Shown: positions 2,273 through 37,637 of the stretch, one piece after another
Position numbering within the stretch: position 1 is the first letter of the stretch
Layout: every line of letters starts with the position of its first letter
NCBI GenBank assembly: GCA_001768975.1
Contig: MEND01000188.1
Span: 1-37,637, forward strand
Direction: 5' to 3'
Origin: Bacteroidetes bacterium GWA2_31_9
Lineage (GTDB): Bacteria > Bacteroidota > Bacteroidia > Bacteroidales > GWF2-33-38
DNA length: 37,637 nt
Notes under the pieces: generated by a model
Databases searched by the model: none
Seen by the model: the letters and a program-made list of their open reading frames with translations, nothing else
Told to the model about the DNA's origin: nothing
Made by a program: the position numbers and the translations under genes

Positions 2273-3394
2273 ATGGATAACATTCAGAAATTAACTACAC
2301 AAATTTTTGAAGTTCACCAATACTTTAAAAATTATGCAAATAAGCAAATTAATAATGCCCTTACATTGCGTAATTGGCTTGTGGGATATTATATAGTTGA
2401 GTATGAGCAAAAAGGAAAAGACAGGGCAGATTATGGCGAAAAAACACTTAAATCCTTATCAGGCAAGTTAAGCGAAAAAGGATTAAAAGGCTTTTCAGAC
2501 CGTAATTTAAGATTGTACCGCCAGTTTTATCAGGAATATCCACAGATTTGGCAATTCATCATTGCCAAATTTCAAAATTCAGATAATCAGATAGATAAAA
2601 TTTGGCAATTGCCAATTGCCAAATCCCATCAAGAGAAAAAAAATACAGATATTGGTATCGAATCTATGCCTGTTGAAATTTTAATAGATAAATTAAGCTA
2701 TACCCACTTTATAGAACTTATAAAAATTGCAGAACCGCTAAAACGAACTTTCTACGAATTGCAAATTATTAAAAACAACCTTACGGTTGAGCAATTACAA
2801 CGAAGTATTAACAGTATGTTGTACGAGCGAACCGGATTGAGTTCCAATAAAGAAGCGGTTTTGAAAAAGCATACAAACGAAAGTTTGATGCAACTACCAG
2901 ACATTATCAAAAATCCATATATACTCGATTTTCTTGGGATTGAAGAAAAGTCTGAATATTCCGAAACCGAACTGGAACAGGCAATTATAAATCATTTACA
3001 AAAATTTCTGATTGAGTTGGGACGTGGCTTTTGTTTCGAAGCCCGCCAAAAACGAATTACATTCAACAACCGACATTATCGTATTGATTTGGTTTTTTAT
3101 CACCGTATTTTGAAATGCCATGTATTGATTGATTTAAAAATGGGAGAGTTTGACCATTCCGATGCAGGGCAAATGAATTTGTATCTGAACTATTATAAAG
3201 AAAACGAAATGAGCCAGTACGATAACCCTCCGGTTGGAATTATTCTGTGTTCGCAAAAAGACAATGCTCTTGTGCATTATGCCACAGGCGGACTACCACA
3301 GGAAGTTTTTGTGAGCCGCTACCTGCTTCAGTTGCCTTCCGAAGAAGAACTGAAAAAACTTATAAACGATGAAATAAAACAACATGAAGTTTGA
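2273..3394 (+). CDS. DUF1016 / YhcG-like PDDEXK nuclease domain protein
   Basis: This 373-residue protein has an N-terminal DUF1016 domain (about 10-165) and a C-terminal PDDEXK-like nuclease domain (about 225-360). The catalytic pattern is visible as YRIDLVFYH (D272) followed by LIDLKMGEF (D287-L-K289). The usual E-x-K is D-x-K here, which still fits the family. The linker around 90-120 holds two related peptides, IWQFIIAKF and IWQLPIAKS, coded by repeated TTTGGCAATT-type DNA. The ATG abuts the hsdM stop with no gap, and the 3' end overlaps hsdS by 11 bases. DUF1016 genes are often inserted in type I loci between hsdM and hsdS; their role is not settled (inferred DNA nuclease or accessory defence factor). 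Confidence 0.9.
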   Translation: MDNIQKLTTQIFEVHQYFKNYANKQINNALTLRNWLVGYYIVEYEQKGKDRADYGEKTLKSLSGKLSEKGLKGFSDRNLRLYRQFYQEYPQIWQFIIAKFQNSDNQIDKIWQLPIAKSHQEKKNTDIGIESMPVEILIDKLSYTHFIELIKIAEPLKRTFYELQIIKNNLTVEQLQRSINSMLYERTGLSSNKEAVLKKHTNESLMQLPDIIKNPYILDFLGIEEKSEYSETELEQAIINHLQKFLIELGRGFCFEARQKRITFNNRHYRIDLVFYHRILKCHVLIDLKMGEFDHSDAGQMNLYLNYYKENEMSQYDNPPVGIILCSQKDNALVHYATGGLPQEVFVSRYLLQLPSEEELKKLINDEIKQHEV

Positions 3395-5177
3395 AAAATT
3401 TAAAAATATAATTACTGATAATACTTCAAATTATTACAAAATTAATAAAGAACATTATTTGTCTAGTGGTCAGTATAAAATTATAGACCAAGGTAAAGAT
3501 TTTATTGGAGGTTATACAAATGATAAAAATTTAGTTATAGAAACTAAATATCCCGTTATAATTTTTGGTGACCATACAAGGATATTTAAATATATAGATT
3601 TTCCTTTTGCAATTGGGGCTGATGGAGTAAAGGTTTTACATGTAAATCAGAACAATGCCTATCCTAAATATATCTATTATTATTTAAAATCGGTTAGACT
3701 TCCAAATGCAGGGTACAGTAGGCATTTTAAATTTTTAAAGGAATTTGAATTACCTGTACCAGAAAAACTCGAAGACCAAATAAAAATCTCCACTATTATA
3801 AGCAAAGCCGAAACCCTTATAAAGCAACGCAAAGAAAGCATTGATTTGTTAGATGTGTTTTTGAAAAGTACTTTTTTGAAAATGTTTGGCGACCCGATTA
3901 AGAATGAAAAAAATTGGAATTTTGATTTGCTTGGTGATTCAGCAATAAAAATAACAGATGGAGAACATCTAAGCCCTAAGTTAACACAGGAGGGTTTTTA
4001 TATAATTATGGCAAAAGATGTTTTGGATGACAAAGTGGATTTTACTCAAAATAATTTTGTTTCAGAGCCAGACTTTATAAAATTCACTAAGAAGTGTAAT
4101 CCTGAAAATGGAGATGTTCTATTAGTAAGTAGAGGTGCAACTATTGGGAGGTGTGTAGTCGTGCATGTAGATAAACCTTTCTGTTTAATGGGAAGTGTCA
4201 TTCTTATTAAACCTAATAATAATAAACTGACAGGAACATTCATTAACTATCTTTTTAAAAATGATTCATTATACAGGAAGTTGATTGTAACGTCAGGTTC
4301 AAGTGCACAACAAGCAATTTATATTGCAGGACTGAAGAAAGTTAAAACGATTGTTCCACCAATTGAACTACAAAATCAATTTTCCAAAATTGTTAAGAAA
4401 GCAGAATCACTTAAACAACAACTTAAAAATGGCTTAAATGAATTGGAACAGCTTTATGGCTCACTGAGCCAAAGGGCGTTTGAAGGGGAGTTGGATTTGA
4501 GTAAGGTTAATATTGAAAAAAGTGAATTTAATCTGGTTACACAAAAAGAAAAGTACCCTGAAATAAACAATGAAATACTAAAAGTAATTGAAGCTGCTAA
4601 TTCTATAACTAAACAATTTGAGAAGGTTACTGAAATTGAAAAAGTAGCTAATAGGTTTAATAAATACTTTGAAAAATGGGAAAATCTTAACAAGCCGTTT
4701 AAAAGCCTTCCAAAAATACCACCTGCAATAATAGAAGCACAACAACGTATTGAAAAGATTCAATCTATATTTACTGAAAACTCTAAAACAAAAGATAAGC
4801 TTTCATGGGATAAAGTTTCATCCAAACAAATAGCACGTTTGATTAGAGAAAAATATTGGGATGAAGAGAAGAATTGCAGTTTTCATATAAATTGTGAAAT
4901 GCTTTTCAGATTTTTAAACGAAGAACATATCATATTTCCCTACTATCATTCTTCAGAAGAATTAAAGATGAATTCAAAATTGAATGAAGCTGATGATTTT
5001 AAATCATTGATATTTTATGCATTAAAAAATGAGAATCCTTATTTGAGACTGAATCAGTTTTTTTATAATGGCGAAGAGGAAAATTTCACATTAAATATTA
5101 CATCTGAAGATTATGAGTTAATTAAAAATAAAACAAAAGAAGAGCGATCGGGTATATATTTTACAATTGCAAAATGA
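3384..5177 (+). CDS. hsdS: Type I specificity subunit HsdS with long C-terminal extension
   Basis: The 597-residue product is the DNA-recognition subunit. The first target-recognition domain spans about 1-128. A conserved helical spacer follows (about 129-171, ending FLKMFGDP), then the second recognition domain (about 172-325, with the typical GDVLLVSRGATIGR) and the second spacer helix (about 326-372, ending SLSQRAFEGEL). HsdS is usually 380-450 residues. Here about 220 extra residues (375-597) follow, mostly charged and helical, with no domain I recognise. The first domain lacks the usual N-terminal lead and may be compact. The start overlaps the DUF1016 gene by 11 bases and the end overlaps the ATPase gene by 4 (ATGA). 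The extension may dock the downstream ATPase; that is inference. Confidence 0.93.
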   Translation: MKFEKFKNIITDNTSNYYKINKEHYLSSGQYKIIDQGKDFIGGYTNDKNLVIETKYPVIIFGDHTRIFKYIDFPFAIGADGVKVLHVNQNNAYPKYIYYYLKSVRLPNAGYSRHFKFLKEFELPVPEKLEDQIKISTIISKAETLIKQRKESIDLLDVFLKSTFLKMFGDPIKNEKNWNFDLLGDSAIKITDGEHLSPKLTQEGFYIIMAKDVLDDKVDFTQNNFVSEPDFIKFTKKCNPENGDVLLVSRGATIGRCVVVHVDKPFCLMGSVILIKPNNNKLTGTFINYLFKNDSLYRKLIVTSGSSAQQAIYIAGLKKVKTIVPPIELQNQFSKIVKKAESLKQQLKNGLNELEQLYGSLSQRAFEGELDLSKVNIEKSEFNLVTQKEKYPEINNEILKVIEAANSITKQFEKVTEIEKVANRFNKYFEKWENLNKPFKSLPKIPPAIIEAQQRIEKIQSIFTENSKTKDKLSWDKVSSKQIARLIREKYWDEEKNCSFHINCEMLFRFLNEEHIIFPYYHSSEELKMNSKLNEADDFKSLIFYALKNENPYLRLNQFFYNGEEENFTLNITSEDYELIKNKTKEERSGIYFTIAK

Positions 5178-6970
5178 AATTAATCAGTGTAAAAATAATT
5201 GGTAAAAATTTTCGGAGCTTATCGGCAAATAAACTTTATTCCTATAATTATACATTTGAATCAGAAAAGCTTTCTACTAAAATATTTGCAGGGTTAAATG
5301 GTAGCGGTAAATCTAATTTTCTGGAATTGTTTTCTGAGATTTTCTATTTTTTAGAATTATGCCAACTTGATACTGTTTCAAATAATGAAAAAGCTACAAA
5401 AAATTTTGGATTTGAAATACAATATTATTTGCCAATTTCCAAAATAGATTTTGAAAAATTATTTGAAACCGAGATAAATGATTCAGTTGAATCTTATATA
5501 AAAGATAATTTACATTTAACTCAAAACAATAGAGAGGAGTTTATTAAAATACATTATAATGAAATTGATGAGTTTGAAAAATTTGTATGGAATCAATTAT
5601 CAAGTTTATTAAGAGATAATCATATACACGTAAGAATTAGCAAGAGATTAGGTGAAAAACCCGAATATTCAATACAAACAAATGATGAATACAAAATATA
5701 TCGTTTAATTGAAAATAACAAAGAAAGTATTTTACCTAAGAAAATAATTGCATACACATCTGGTCAAAACGAGTTATTAAGTAATCCGTTTTACAAGCTT
5801 AAATATCATTACTTCAAAATATTTGAAAATAAAAAGAAGATTGAAGATGGAGACCAGTTGGCAGATAATCATCGAATGTTTTTTCTTGATTACAGTAATA
5901 ATTTTTCCATTTTTATTGCAAATATGTTGCTGGCTGATGATTTAAAAATTAGTTATCTTAAAGAAATATTAGAAATTAATGATTTACAATCATTTAGAAT
6001 AACCCTAAATACAAATGAACTTTATAAAAAGGTCATTCTTAAAAATAGAAGAATAACTGTAAATCTTCTAAAATTAAAACAATGTGCAACAACATGGGTA
6101 GAAAAAAATGTAGAAGAACATAATTTATTAATTCTTGATTTTTTTGTAAATCGGGCAACCAAAGATGCTTTTAAATTTCACTTTGGCTCAGCATTTAACT
6201 TATTTAGTTTTTTTTATGAACTCGAAATATTTAATCTTTATCAGGTTGATGAAAATACCAGAAATTCTATGCTACAGGTTCATAAATCATATAATGTAAA
6301 TGATGAATCTTCAAAACCAGACCCATCAAGGCTTACATTCAGAATAGAAAAAATAATAATTAGTAAAAACTTAGGCAAAGATAAACCACCAGCAGAAATT
6401 TATTACAAAGCACTCTCCGATGGTGAACACCAGTTTATAGAAGTACTTGGCACAGTTTTAATGATGGAACAACCTGGCTGTTTGTTTCTCCTCGATGAAC
6501 CCGATACGCATTTTAATCCAAAATGGAGGGCAAAACTTATTCAGCTTTTAAATTATATGGCAGCCACCTCATTTGACAGTGAAGGCAATGTTGAGAAGGT
6601 AAGAAGTCAGGAAATAATATTAACCACACATTCGCCTTTTGTTATTTCAGATAGCAATAAGGAGGATGTGTACAAATTCGACAAAATAAATGGAGAAGTA
6701 AGATATATTAATCCTAAAATTGAAACCTATGGAGCATCAATGAGTTTGCTCTTACAGGAAATTTTCGACAGAAAAATTTCAATTTCAGATTTATCAAATA
6801 CTGAACTTGAAAAACTTCGTACTGAAATTAAAGAACTTAAATCAAATGATGCAATTAAAGAAAAAATTGAAGAGACTAAAGAAAAGCTCTTAGATTTTGG
6901 CGAAAGTATCGAAAAATTCGATATGTATAGCTTTCTTAGACACATTGAAAAAGAGATTGAAAGCAAATAA
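5174..6970 (+). CDS. Restriction-associated AAA/SMC-type ATPase (PtuA-like)
   Basis: This 598-residue protein has an ABC/SMC-type ATPase head split by a long insertion. Walker A is GLNGSGKSN at 40-48, the signature-like LSDGEHQ at 414-420, Walker B FLLDEPDTHF at 438-447, and the switch histidine in TTHSPFV at 484-490. All key residues are present. The end, about 530-598, is a charged coiled coil. Proteins of this kind occur as 'restriction system-associated AAA ATPase', and as the ATPase of Septu (PtuA) when paired with an HNH nuclease. It overlaps hsdS by 4 bases and the HNH gene by 1, so all three are probably translated in step. It probably senses phage or damage and controls the nuclease. 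The ATPase call is sure; the Septu assignment is inference. Confidence 0.88.
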   Translation: MKLISVKIIGKNFRSLSANKLYSYNYTFESEKLSTKIFAGLNGSGKSNFLELFSEIFYFLELCQLDTVSNNEKATKNFGFEIQYYLPISKIDFEKLFETEINDSVESYIKDNLHLTQNNREEFIKIHYNEIDEFEKFVWNQLSSLLRDNHIHVRISKRLGEKPEYSIQTNDEYKIYRLIENNKESILPKKIIAYTSGQNELLSNPFYKLKYHYFKIFENKKKIEDGDQLADNHRMFFLDYSNNFSIFIANMLLADDLKISYLKEILEINDLQSFRITLNTNELYKKVILKNRRITVNLLKLKQCATTWVEKNVEEHNLLILDFFVNRATKDAFKFHFGSAFNLFSFFYELEIFNLYQVDENTRNSMLQVHKSYNVNDESSKPDPSRLTFRIEKIIISKNLGKDKPPAEIYYKALSDGEHQFIEVLGTVLMMEQPGCLFLLDEPDTHFNPKWRAKLIQLLNYMAATSFDSEGNVEKVRSQEIILTTHSPFVISDSNKEDVYKFDKINGEVRYINPKIETYGASMSLLLQEIFDRKISISDLSNTELEKLRTEIKELKSNDAIKEKIEETKEKLLDFGESIEKFDMYSFLRHIEKEIESK

Positions 6971-8066: not shown

Positions 8067-8555
8067 ATGGCTTTAATTGATGATATTAATAAATATGGCG
8101 GTTTAACTAAAATAAAAGAATTTTATGAAAAGCTGTCCTTTGCTGAAGCAATTGAAAAAGCTTCTTCAGGAATAAATCCAAATGGAAAGATGGATAGGCA
8201 TATGTGTCATATTGGTTATAAAGTATGCAACCAAGGATATGAATTATTAAAAAATGACGAAAATAAGATTCAAAATTGTCTATGTTTTGAAAAATTAATT
8301 GAAATAACAAATAACCTCACAAGCATTCAAGGATTAGGCGATTTATGGAGTTACGATACTGCTTTACGAATAGGGTTCAATTTGGGAGTTTATCCAAACA
8401 AAGTATATGTACATGCAGGAGTAAGAAAAGGTGTTAAAAAAATAGCTCCTAATATTAAAATAAAAAGAAAAATGGATTTAAGCCAATTTCCTGCTGAAAT
8501 GCAAACTTTAACACATTATGAAGCAGAGAATTTTCTTTGTATTTATGGTAAATAA
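8067..8555 (+). CDS. Hypothetical protein with LGDLWSYDTALRIG segment
   Basis: A 162-residue soluble protein begins 11 bases after the HNH gene on the same strand and so probably belongs to the same transcript. The middle (about 88-130) contains the phrases QGLGDLWSYDTALRIG and NKVYVHAGVRKGVKK, which look like a conserved helix-hairpin-helix-like or small DNA-binding core. The N-terminal half has three cysteines and a histidine (around HMCHIGYKVC). No signal peptide or membrane segment is seen. I do not recognise a named family. Its position suggests an accessory or regulatory part of the defence locus. Confidence 0.72.
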   Translation: MALIDDINKYGGLTKIKEFYEKLSFAEAIEKASSGINPNGKMDRHMCHIGYKVCNQGYELLKNDENKIQNCLCFEKLIEITNNLTSIQGLGDLWSYDTALRIGFNLGVYPNKVYVHAGVRKGVKKIAPNIKIKRKMDLSQFPAEMQTLTHYEAENFLCIYGK

Positions 8556-19220: not shown

Positions 19221-19373
19221 TTAATTAGAGTTTGTCCATAATGTCCGATTTCATCGTTATTCTCGACCTTCAAATCAGTCATGTACTGAAGTACACTCCT
19301 GATTTTCAGCTCATCGAAACCTCGAACTCGAACATTCTGTTTCAAACTCTTGGCTTTAAGGACAGACACTAAT
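19221..19373 (+). repeat. 153-base interspersed element, copy 1
   Basis: The left end is TTAATTAGAGTTTGTCCATA and the right end is its imperfect complement (GACAGACACTAAT). Copy 2 at 35621-35773 is the same length and orientation and differs at only 6 bases by eye. No transposase is present. This is MITE-like. Confidence 0.8.
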
Positions 19374-34311: not shown

Positions 34312-35580
34312 TTACTTTATAGGACAATGCTCAATACATCTACCACAACTCAGACATGTTGCTTTATTTGGTGTATAGTCGGAGTGAAATTTGAATTTTA
34401 TAAGACTTATCAATGTTAATCCGAAAACGAGACCAATAAATGCTCCCAAAATCCAGCTTCCAATATAAAAACTTTTTAAAATTTCAGAAGCCTCTGCTAT
34501 TACCATTTCCTTTGTTTTTCCTGATTCTTTAAATGTTGCTATTTCAATTGCATCTTTATTTTTAAGACCGTAATTTGTATTATTTACTAATTCATCGGCG
34601 AGTATAACTTTTTTGTTTACAATTGCCAGATTTTCGTGAAAACTAGCTCCAATAAAACCGCCTGCAACAACTAAAACCGGAACTATAAAACTCAATAAAA
34701 AGAATCGCCTTACAGATGTTTCTGTTTTTTCTTTTTCTTTCAAAAAGGTTGGTTTATTGATAGCTTCAAATGGACATGAATTTTCGCACAATTTGCAATT
34801 GATACATTCTTTGGGAGTTATTGTCATGTGTTTGAATGAAAATCTACTGACAAGGTTTAGAATTGCTCCGTAAGGGCATAAAAATCGGCAATATGGACGT
34901 GCTATGAAAATTCCAATTATCAAAAGAATTGCCCCAATACCGAACATCATAAATGTAGCATCGAAGCGGAAAAAACCTACAAAAGGGTCGTATCGGCAAA
35001 TTATAAAATCTGTGCCTGTGGCTGCATAAATAATTGATAATCCGAGATATATAAATGGAATTATGCCTAATGCTTTTTCGAGCCACAATTTTATAGCCAT
35101 TGGACGAAATGCAAAAATATCTTGAATTGCTCCAAGTGGACAAATTCCGGCACAAAAAGTTCGTCCGAAAAAAAGTGTATAAAGCAATGGAATTATAAAA
35201 AACAATAATGCCGAAATTGGTATGCTATAAGCTGAATTGAAAAGGGCAAGTGTTACATTTTGAACCGAGCCAACCGAGCAAATACAACCTTCGCGATAAA
35301 ATCCAAAATATAAAACCGCAAAAACCGACATCCAGAAAACTCCTCTACGTGAACGTTTTTTCAGAATAAACCATGTAATTAATGAAAGGCTGGCAATCAA
35401 AACAAAAATATCGAGATATTCGAGTATTTCGGCTCTTGGTGCAGGTGTTACTGTATGAGGTTGAACGTGTCCTGATTCAAATTCTGGTTTTGGGAAACGC
35501 TTGATTGCATAAGAATTGAAAGACTGAATAGAAAGTAGGATTACTGAAAATAGTAGTAATGTTTTGATTAATGTTTGCAT
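34312..35580 (-). CDS. Polyferredoxin-like membrane protein (NosR/NapH type)
   Basis: This 422-residue protein has about six membrane helices. A first one (about 5-23) may act as a signal anchor. The CICSVGSVQNV, RTFCAGICPLGAI and RPYCRFLCPYGAI segments place paired CxxxCP motifs at membrane edges. Two 4Fe-4S motifs of the CxxCxxCxxxCP form follow: CINCKLCENSCP (about 260-271) and CLSCGRCIEHCP, the latter ending two residues before the stop. This layout matches NapH/NosR-like electron-transfer proteins of Bacteroidota. No reductase partner is seen here. The direct electron acceptor is unknown. Confidence 0.85.
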   Translation of the reverse strand: MQTLIKTLLLFSVILLSIQSFNSYAIKRFPKPEFESGHVQPHTVTPAPRAEILEYLDIFVLIASLSLITWFILKKRSRRGVFWMSVFAVLYFGFYREGCICSVGSVQNVTLALFNSAYSIPISALLFFIIPLLYTLFFGRTFCAGICPLGAIQDIFAFRPMAIKLWLEKALGIIPFIYLGLSIIYAATGTDFIICRYDPFVGFFRFDATFMMFGIGAILLIIGIFIARPYCRFLCPYGAILNLVSRFSFKHMTITPKECINCKLCENSCPFEAINKPTFLKEKEKTETSVRRFFLLSFIVPVLVVAGGFIGASFHENLAIVNKKVILADELVNNTNYGLKNKDAIEIATFKESGKTKEMVIAEASEILKSFYIGSWILGAFIGLVFGLTLISLIKFKFHSDYTPNKATCLSCGRCIEHCPIK

Positions 35581-35620: not shown

Positions 35621-35773
35621 TTAATTAGAGTTTGTCCATAATGTCCGTTTTCATCGTTATTCTCGACCTTCAAACCAGTCATGTACTGAAGTACACTCCT
35701 GATTTTCAGTTCATCGAAACCTCGAACTCGAACATTCTGTTTCAAACTCTTGACTTTATGAACAGACACTAAT
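35621..35773 (+). repeat. 153-base interspersed element, copy 2
   Basis: It is the same length and orientation as copy 1 at 19221-19373, with 6 differences by eye (about 96% identity). The inverted ends are TTAATTAGAGTTTGTCCATA and the imperfect complement AACAGACACTAATTA. It separates the polyferredoxin-like gene from the ATPase/DUF4276 pair. Confidence 0.8.
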
Positions 35774-35781
35774 TATAGCTA

Positions 35782-36357
35782 TCAAAAATTATTTTGTATA
35801 AAAATACTTAACCCATTTACAAACTGTCCAAAGCTTGTAGATTTATTATTTTCAATGGTTATAATAGGTGATATAATTCTCGCTCCTTCAACTTTTTGAA
35901 AAAGAGGAATAATGCGTTTTATTTCATCGTAAGAATTTAAATTATCTGGATTACGAAATTTTGCTTTATTTTTATATTTTTTAGAATTAAATTTTGGATA
36001 TGCCATTTGCAAAGTATCCATATCTCCTAAATACCAAGACTCCAATTCTCGACAAACAATTCTTATTAAATATTTTAAGTTATTACATTTTGGTTCACAG
36101 AGACTTTGTAATTCTTTTTTAAGTAATATGCAATCATTACTATCTTGATCTTGTAAAATCACTATCCCAACAGGAATATTTAAATTATTAAAAGCTCTAA
36201 TTTTATGTGGGATTGATTTTTTTAAATCTGATTTTCCTTCGTGAGATCGTAAAAAATAATGTTCATTTAGTTTAATATTTTCGGGCAGAATTCTAGGTAA
36301 TAAATTTTCAAGAAAAACTTTCATTGAATATTCTTCAAGCAAAAATTCAATTCTCAT
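35782..36357 (-). CDS. DUF4276 TOPRIM-like protein
   Basis: I chose the ATG at 36357 (191 residues, MRIEFLLEEYSMKVFL). A GTG at 36384 would overlap the ATPase end. TOPRIM-like marks are the N-terminal Glu (LLEE, about 6-9), the DQDSND phrase (about 87-92) giving D-x-D, and RELESWYLGD (about 120-129) with a Glu. DUF4276 proteins often follow an AAA ATPase in defence-rich regions, like a split OLD-type ATPase-TOPRIM nuclease. It starts 10 bases after the ATPase stop; a repeat element lies just downstream. Confidence 0.85.
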   Translation of the reverse strand: MRIEFLLEEYSMKVFLENLLPRILPENIKLNEHYFLRSHEGKSDLKKSIPHKIRAFNNLNIPVGIVILQDQDSNDCILLKKELQSLCEPKCNNLKYLIRIVCRELESWYLGDMDTLQMAYPKFNSKKYKNKAKFRNPDNLNSYDEIKRIIPLFQKVEGARIISPIITIENNKSTSFGQFVNGLSIFIQNNF

Positions 36358-36367
36358 ATTTTCATTT

Positions 36368-37567
36368 TTAAGCTCTTGGCCCACTTCCTTTTAAATAATT
36401 TTGTTTCCATAACGAACCTAATAAATCTCCTTCATTTATTAACTTTACTAAAATAGGGTCATCTTTTGCTCGTATTATTTTAGAATAGCCCTTTTCTTTT
36501 GATAGCCAAAAAAGCTCTTCAATATTCAAAGCATTAACAAAATCAGGTGAATGTGATGAAATAAAAACTTGTCCTCCACGTAATGAATAATCTCTAAACT
36601 CTTCAGCTAATTCAACTAATATTTCAGGATGTAAAAAGTTTTCAGGTTCTTCTACACATAATAATGGAAATGGCTGAGGGTCGTTTAAAAGAATTAAATA
36701 TGCAAACATTTTTATAGTTCCGTCAGATACATATCGAGAAATAAATGGGTCTTTAAATGTCCCATCTTGTATTTGTAAAACAATTCTGCCATCAATAGTT
36801 TCGGTTGCTTCAACTTTTGAAACACCAGGAATTCTTTGTTGCATTTTTTTTAAAATACTTTGAAAATTCTCTGGAAAATTTTCATAAATATATTTTGTTA
36901 CTTGTGCTAAATTATTTCCATTTGTAGATAAATGTTCACTAACTCCTGTATCAGTAATAGTTTGAGCAGCTTGAATTTGAAAATTTGAAACATACCAATT
37001 ATCTAAAAGTTTTCTGAAACTACTAATCGCTTTAAATTTTTGAAATTGCCCAAGTCCTTTTAATGCAAGTATATCAGGAGAATCTAACTTTTGTTCTTCT
37101 CTTTTTTCTTTAAATTCTTGTTTTGCTATTTCAAACTCATCTTCATTTATAATCGCATTTCCTATTCCATCTGAAAAATCTAAAAATTTATATGGCTTTC
37201 CAGTTTGACCTCTTCTATAACTTAAAATTTCTTTTGTAACAATTGGCTGATTATTTTTTAATCCTATTGATAATTCATAAGTAATTAGAGGTTGTTTTTT
37301 TCCATCAACAGAATCATTTCTAAATTTAATCTCAAATTCAATATCGCCAGTACAATCTCGTGATAATACTTCATTATAACCACCTCTTTTATTTAATGAA
37401 GTTTTAACATTATTTTTTAAAGAATCGCTTAAAAAACCAAACACATCAAATAATGTAGTTTTGCCAGTACCATTTGCTCCTAAAAAAACGCACATATTCG
37501 GGAGGTCTCTTATTTCAACATTTTGAAGTGCTTTATAATTTTTTATTCTAATTTTTTCAATTTTCAT
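36368..37567 (-). CDS. AAA_21-type ATPase paired with DUF4276
   Basis: The ATG at 37567 gives 399 residues (MKIEKIRIKNYKALQ). A longer start at 37588 lies inside the promoter's -7 box and is unlikely. The RecF/SMC-like head has Walker A FLGANGTGKTTL (about 28-39), signature-like SRYVSDGTIKM, Walker B LLCVEEPENFLHPE, and the switch ISSHSPDFV. It has a Glu-rich middle insertion. With the following TOPRIM-like gene it resembles an ATPase-nuclease defence pair. The end KGSGPRA is common in this ATPase group. Confidence 0.9.
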   Translation of the reverse strand: MKIEKIRIKNYKALQNVEIRDLPNMCVFLGANGTGKTTLFDVFGFLSDSLKNNVKTSLNKRGGYNEVLSRDCTGDIEFEIKFRNDSVDGKKQPLITYELSIGLKNNQPIVTKEILSYRRGQTGKPYKFLDFSDGIGNAIINEDEFEIAKQEFKEKREEQKLDSPDILALKGLGQFQKFKAISSFRKLLDNWYVSNFQIQAAQTITDTGVSEHLSTNGNNLAQVTKYIYENFPENFQSILKKMQQRIPGVSKVEATETIDGRIVLQIQDGTFKDPFISRYVSDGTIKMFAYLILLNDPQPFPLLCVEEPENFLHPEILVELAEEFRDYSLRGGQVFISSHSPDFVNALNIEELFWLSKEKGYSKIIRAKDDPILVKLINEGDLLGSLWKQNYLKGSGPRA

Positions 37568-37585
37568 AAAAATATCACATTTTTT

Positions 37586-37616
37586 CAAAAATAGTCAGTA
37601 ATTGTAAGATAACAAA
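37586..37616 (-). promoter_or_regulatory. Bacteroidota consensus promoter for the ATPase/DUF4276 pair
   Basis: The minus strand has TTTG, exactly 19 bases, then TATTTTTG, a full match to TTTG-N19-TAnnTTTG. The -7 box ends 18 bases before the ATG at 37567, implying a short leader. Confidence 0.75.
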
Positions 37617-37637
37617 ATAATTATTGGTTTACTTATT

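Follow-up and report, generated by a model that had tools for sequence, protein, structure and literature searches.

At the right end of the window, which spans positions 1 to 37,637 of contig MEND01000188.1 of Bacteroidetes bacterium GWA2_31_9 and is probably a whole contig, an ABC ATPase gene and a DUF4276 gene lie adjacent to each other on the minus strand, with the ATPase gene first. The locus raises the question of whether these two genes form a defence unit and how such a unit would act. It is fairly probable that the two genes make up an anti-phage unit belonging to the HEC-01 type of PADLOC, a split-OLD-like, ATPase-gated TOPRIM nuclease that would arrest infected cells. The system is an already catalogued candidate for defence, found here at a new location. 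For DUF4276, the analysis adds firmer support for the TOPRIM assignment and an as yet unexplained division of its acidic residues into two patterns.

The gene pair and its ATPase

The following features are found in this part of the window:

35622..35775, no strand assigned: MITE-like repeat of 154 bp with imperfect terminal inverted repeats and TAATTA at both ends
35782-36384, minus strand: DUF4276 ORF as listed, with a GTG start at 36384
35782..36357, minus strand: TOPRIM-like partner of family DUF4276 (PF14103), likely start ATG 36357
36368-37588, minus strand: ATPase ORF as listed, with a TTG start at 37588
36368..37567, minus strand: ABC ATPase gene with an SMC/OLD-type head, the PADLOC HEC-01 ATPase, likely start ATG 37567
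37586-37616, minus strand: Bacteroidota-type promoter match TTTG-N19-TATTTTTG, a consensus match only

Judged by sequence, the listed starts of both ORFs are probably too long. Homologues of the ATPase open with MKIEK and those of the DUF4276 protein with MRIEF, which makes ATG 37567 and ATG 36357 the likely starts. The listed TTG of the ATPase falls within the -7 box of the promoter match, and the listed GTG would make the DUF4276 ORF overlap the ATPase gene. The promoter pattern searched was TTTG-N19-TAnnTTTG, the -33/-7 consensus of the Bacteroidota. The window contains two occurrences of it where 0.80 would be expected, and 21 of 100 shuffles reach two, so that the match by itself is weak, its window-wide frequency not being clearly above chance; it counts because it lies on the right strand about 18 bases before the likely ATPase ATG. 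The pair had been credited with its own consensus promoter, and what stands of this is a match that makes a plausible ATPase promoter, by position only.

Both genes are genuine. The ATPase matches the PADLOC HEC-01 model PDLC04144 over nearly its full length (E 1.3e-176, residues 8-405) and Pfam AAA_21 with an E value of 2.9e-27. The partner likewise matches the HEC-01 model PDLC04143 nearly end to end (E 4.8e-49, residues 12-195), and its PF14103 score of 54.4 bits passes the Pfam gathering cut-off of 30.2. On these models the pair is assigned to HEC-01 (Hma-embedded candidate 1), a candidate system already catalogued by PADLOC; both proteins fit, no difference appears among the features tested, and the window copy is an ordinary example of the pair. 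PADLOC gives no mechanism for HEC-01, and no published mechanism was found in the open literature searched. The same kind of search found no paper on DUF4276, which, being restricted to open literature, is no proof of absence from print. A Desulfovibrio piger paper mentions HEC-01 only as detected (PMC12724379), and an excerpt of another paper states that some HEC systems were verified later (PMC12409356), with no such statement found for HEC-01.

The ATPase carries all the head motifs ascribed to it by the sequence-only reading: the Walker A motif GANGTGKTT, the signature SDGT, the Walker B motif EEPE, and the H-loop HS. Their core residues, G37, N39, G40, G42, K43, S288-T291, E314-E316, H346, and S347 (counted from the TTG start), are invariant in all 28 aligned ATPases. 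The structural model of the protein gives matches with Z scores of 19-21 overall, at about 21 with SMC heads, 20.8 with PtuA (9nnb_D), and 20.2 with Rad50. The heads of OLD, AriA, and Gabija are absent among the best 50 structural matches listed, which excludes nothing; the ATPase also matches the PADLOC AriA models (E 2.6e-26).

The DUF4276 protein and its relatives

The partner is predicted to adopt a TOPRIM-like fold, as seen from its AlphaFold model (pLDDT 89.5) and a ranking by VIA-align 2 over the 1000 top-ranked Foldseek chains. The best match is BpOLD (6nk8_A; Z 11.0, rmsd 4.1, 171 residues), followed by the XccOLD entries 6njv (Z 10.9), 6njx (10.7), and 6njw (10.5), and the region matched in these class 2 OLD proteins is the TOPRIM region with its helical part. 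Next are PH0156 (2p62; Z 9.8) and a Helicobacter protein (6mtz; Z 8.7), while TsOLD (6p74) reaches Z 8.5. AriB (8v46_D; Z 7.9 over 149 residues) and GajA (8jq9; Z 7.2) lie near the background of unrelated Rossmann-like folds, which score Z 7-7.8; these two matches alone therefore prove little, and only the OLD rows and the two uncharacterised proteins stand clear. A plain Foldseek search with the model gives nothing at an E value of ≤0.001, with lumazine synthases on top (best E 0.04), and a sequence search of the PDB with the protein, as a single sequence or as a profile, gives no useful match.

The acidic residues were compared in an alignment of 52 DUF4276 proteins, comprised of 25 proteins from the HEC-01-like set and 27 of the 30 PF14103 loci, in which counts refer to sequences and not to independent events. 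The Glu and the D-x-D pattern proposed for the partner are both present in the window protein. In the family, E17, D79, E113, and E115 are kept in 52/52 members, whereas D81, the second Asp of D-x-D, is found in 27/52, the other 25 bearing a different acid, so that the expected conservation of TOPRIM residues gives a mixed picture, holding for the Glu and the first Asp but only in part for the second. Two residue patterns are seen: E-E-x-[ST] with D-x-D (E18 and D81 without E21; 26/52) and E-G-x-T-E without the second Asp (G18 and E21 without D81; 25/52). One protein of the 52 combines G18 with D81. In BpOLD, as described in an excerpt of PMC6755086, metal A is bound by E400, D455, and D457 and metal B by E404, T506, and E508, with assistance from K562. 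The order of acids in DUF4276 (E, D, then E-x-E) parallels E400, D455/D457, and T506-x-E508 of BpOLD in that excerpt, a correspondence of sequence order only and not of superposed coordinates. In contrast to BpOLD with its E404, the window protein has no acidic residue four positions past E17 (M21). K164, a Lys in 41/52 members, is a candidate for the role of K562. A further position, P146, is a proline in 52/52 members and is followed by Asp or Glu in 51/52; it has no known role.

Among known systems, class 2 OLD proteins and GajA of Gabija share the combination of an ABC ATPase with TOPRIM, and the best structural match of the partner (Z 11.0) comes from this group, but both parts are fused in one protein there, in contrast to the two genes of the window pair. 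Gabija consists of a fused ATPase-TOPRIM protein and a helicase, the UvrD-like GajB, and the term Gabija-type, under which the pair had been described as a split OLD/Gabija-type ATPase-nuclease, is therefore too specific; on the visible side, the window pair has no helicase gene next to it but that of a 4Fe-4S protein, and the contig ends on its other side. The split ATPase/TOPRIM arrangement itself is retained on the basis of family models, predicted fold, and conserved acids. PtuA of Septu shares its ATPase fold with the window ATPase but works with the HNH-type nuclease PtuB, in place of which the window pair has a TOPRIM protein. PARIS (AriA-AriB; proposed class 4 OLD), with separate adjacent ATPase and TOPRIM genes as in the window, is a nearer architecture than Gabija. 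Its effector differs, since AriB is not among the 13 PADLOC families matched by the partner at an E value of ≤1, in a library that presumably contains an AriB model.

Published accounts of relatives support the ATPase-gated TOPRIM layout (PMC12839542, PMC10568477). A passage of the review describes PARIS as an ATPase and a TOPRIM protein on separate genes (PMC10568477). According to parts of PMC12839542, Ocr is sensed in PARIS by the ATPase, which then sets AriB loose on tRNA, and BREX loci repeatedly contain OLD ATPases linked to TOPRIM that act as backup effectors. IbfA, a homologue of HEC-04 in which ATPase and TOPRIM are fused, lowers phage productivity, as stated in an excerpt of PMC12111858.

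For the window pair, a multistep mechanism analogous to these layouts is proposed. Here, the ABC ATPase with its SMC/Rad50/OLD-type head would dimerise on ATP and act as sensor and gate, and the DUF4276 protein, a putative metal-dependent nuclease of TOPRIM fold, would be held in a complex by the ATPase or recruited to it. Infection would change the state of the ATPase and open the gate, whereupon the TOPRIM protein would cut nucleic acid, and the cell would no longer support the phage. As the closest fold matches are OLD DNA nucleases, DNA is slightly favoured over tRNA as the predicted substrate. In a PARIS-like alternative, the ATPase would hold the TOPRIM protein until a phage anti-restriction protein is sensed, and the released nuclease would then cut host tRNA. 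The PARIS-like placement of ATPase and TOPRIM on two genes and the presence of AriB among the fold matches are in line with this alternative, whereas the nearer fold of the OLD DNA nucleases and the missing AriB model match in the partner at that cut-off argue against it.

Pairing, spread, and defence loci

The pairing of the two genes looks obligate. An ATPase gene lies directly upstream on the same strand in all 30 PF14103 loci read, and a DUF4276 neighbour is detected in 23 of 29 ATPase loci, the titles of which name Bacteroidota, Nitrospirae, Cyanobacteria, Lachnospiraceae, and others. The six loci in which the partner was not detected (L034, L035, L037, L039, L041, and L042) include one ending at the match as well as broken or distant ATPases. 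DUF4276 is without a functional name, yet PF14103 occurs in 56 members of a 296-genome sample of the phylum (0 of 14 controls); the TOPRIM fold, as predicted, and the defined conserved acids turn this catalogue entry into a testable ATPase-gated nuclease. Among 99 genomes searched, relatives and the genome itself, the DUF4276 partner is found in 5, and none was detected in G001, a genome of the same genus that is 79% complete. The genome of the window also carries a second, divergent ATPase and DUF4276-like pair (locus L104, 6720-8207 and 8204-8842 on contig C17), which matches the HEC-01 models with E values of 1.5e-91 and 9.8e-25; its TOPRIM Glu motif seems to be IADGSSD, with Asp replacing Glu.

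On plasmids, 233 records contain ATPase matches, with an identity of less than 60% in 232 of them, and the partner occurs in 8. Such tight two-gene cassettes, one of them between conjugation genes and mobF, could also be read as a toxin-antitoxin-like addiction pair in which a DUF4276 toxin is silenced by the ATPase for plasmid upkeep, and the Pfam AAA_21 model is labelled putative AbiEii toxin. However, none of the 29 ATPase loci is titled plasmid, and an ATPase of 400 residues is not a small antitoxin; this reading is considered very improbable.

Five annotated plasmid loci, picked by eye from the match list, were opened, and three of them lie inside defence loci. On Synechocystis pSYSM, the pair has a cysteine desulfurase on one side and a phosphorothioation-associated methyltransferase on the other (Dnd locus); on Meiothermus pMtWR-220, it lies within a type I restriction-modification (R-M) operon, adjoining the R subunit; and on plasmid C of E. 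coli S30, a distant HEC-01 pair is found between pglX and pglZ of BREX-1. Pseudanabaena pPSE7367.01 and Pseudomonas pGLE121P3 show no obvious defence genes beside the pair. The HEC-01 models also recognise distant pairs that lie within other defence loci. The PADLOC assignment and these homologous pairs lend indirect support to the suggestion that the pair may be a defence unit; its expected place in defence islands applies to the homologues in BREX, type I R-M, and Dnd loci and not to the window copy, which lies in no visible island.

A wider scan covered 138 neighbour proteins of ≤900 aa, taken from up to four genes a side at 19 of the 29 ATPase loci, and a control of 141 proteins drawn from 19 regions placed arbitrarily in same-phylum genomes. 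The neighbours matched 41 PADLOC families at 1e-20, compared to 5 in the control, a count of families and not of proteins. Type III methyltransferase models by themselves account for many of the rows, and the cysteine desulfurases among them (SspA, DndA) may be housekeeping enzymes. For three proteins in each set, the only match is to a generic ATPase model (mad3), and the neighbour loci span several phyla, whereas the control comes from one. Of nine large neighbours (>900 aa), scanned without a control set, three match PADLOC: an SNF2-type helicase in L014, a C3a139-like protein in L032, and JetC in L039. A second look at 10 proteins, 9 of which were already in the set, gave 3 matches, two of them homologous to each other. 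The scan is suggestive of defence surroundings and is not a statistic. In L039, the JetC-like (Wadjet) gene (3304-6681, E 0) lies close upstream of the HEC-01-type ATPase at 8139.

That such pairs recur within BREX, type I R-M, and Dnd loci is consistent with an effector that backs up restriction as an additional layer. For the PARIS-like alternative, BREX and type I R-M are the loci in which an anti-restriction guard would make sense, an argument made for PARIS in BREX in a passage of PMC12839542; even so, tRNA cutting of this kind by the window pair is possible but doubtful. A cellular maintenance pair of ATPase and TOPRIM protein, serving DNA repair or the cell cycle without a defence role, would suit the SMC/Rad50-type head and the window copy outside any visible island, and an archaeal OLD-family ATPase, Cran1, has a role in the progression of the cell cycle and apparently none in defence, according to an excerpt of PMC12796447. 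This explanation is improbable given the very patchy spread, with no copy found in the same-genus genome, the ATPase family on plasmids, and the pairs inside three kinds of defence locus. Beyond the anti-phage unit favoured for the window, it is tentatively proposed, as a rather speculative view of the family, that DUF4276 is a large group of stand-alone TOPRIM effectors always travelling with an OLD-type ATPase. Its two active-site designs would share E, D, and E-x-E and trade one metal-ligand acid for another. They might act on different substrates (DNA or tRNA) and, as interchangeable effectors, back up restriction, BREX, and phosphorothioation systems.

The repeat and the genomic site

The pair had been described as bounded by a repeat element and hence portable. 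The repeat is real, but it sits just past the DUF4276 stop codon, on the downstream side of the pair only, with the contig end at 37637 on the other side. Its terminal inverted repeats agree at 14/18 positions, counted by eye, and its 61-aa ORF matches no family above the cut-off. With 52 whole or partial matches across the genome, it is a genome-wide, MITE-like element, and its role as the vehicle of the unit is unproven; the conclusion of portability drawn from it is not upheld. The patchy distribution of the pair is better evidence for mobility. A second copy in the window lies at 19221-19373, and most copies read show TAATTA or TATTTA at both ends. The repeat was not found in the same-genus genome G001 or in G002, G022, and G037, and G014 has three related matches of 75-88%.

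Two further signals were considered. An inverted repeat of 15 bases around the pair (35783-35797 and 37612-37626) is put down to chance, since other AT-rich matches about as long are present, for example, 14/14 at 36250/37406. Base composition gives no signal of foreign origin, with 26.7% G+C in the pair compared to 29.7% in the window, a difference of about one standard deviation (2.7 among 1.8-kb windows).

The functional scan of window genes covered the pair and 34312-35580, its neighbour on the visible side, which encodes a 4Fe-4S (iron-sulphur) membrane protein, not a defence protein. The segment 32499-35565 of the window aligns with contig C17 of G001 at 82% identity. Past the aligned segment, a 215-aa gene is followed in G001 by a gene identified by its cysteine pattern as coding for a 4Fe-4S protein; the counterpart of the latter gene opens contig C91 of the window's genome. 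It follows from the aligned flank and this counterpart that the two genomes differ in the interval holding the pair and the MITE-like repeat. On C91, the interval between two conserved genes measures about 6 kb, compared to about 0.4 kb in G001. It is filled by two very large ORFs of 749 and 1118 aa (locus L108, 821-6439), which, by reading, look like secreted proteins.
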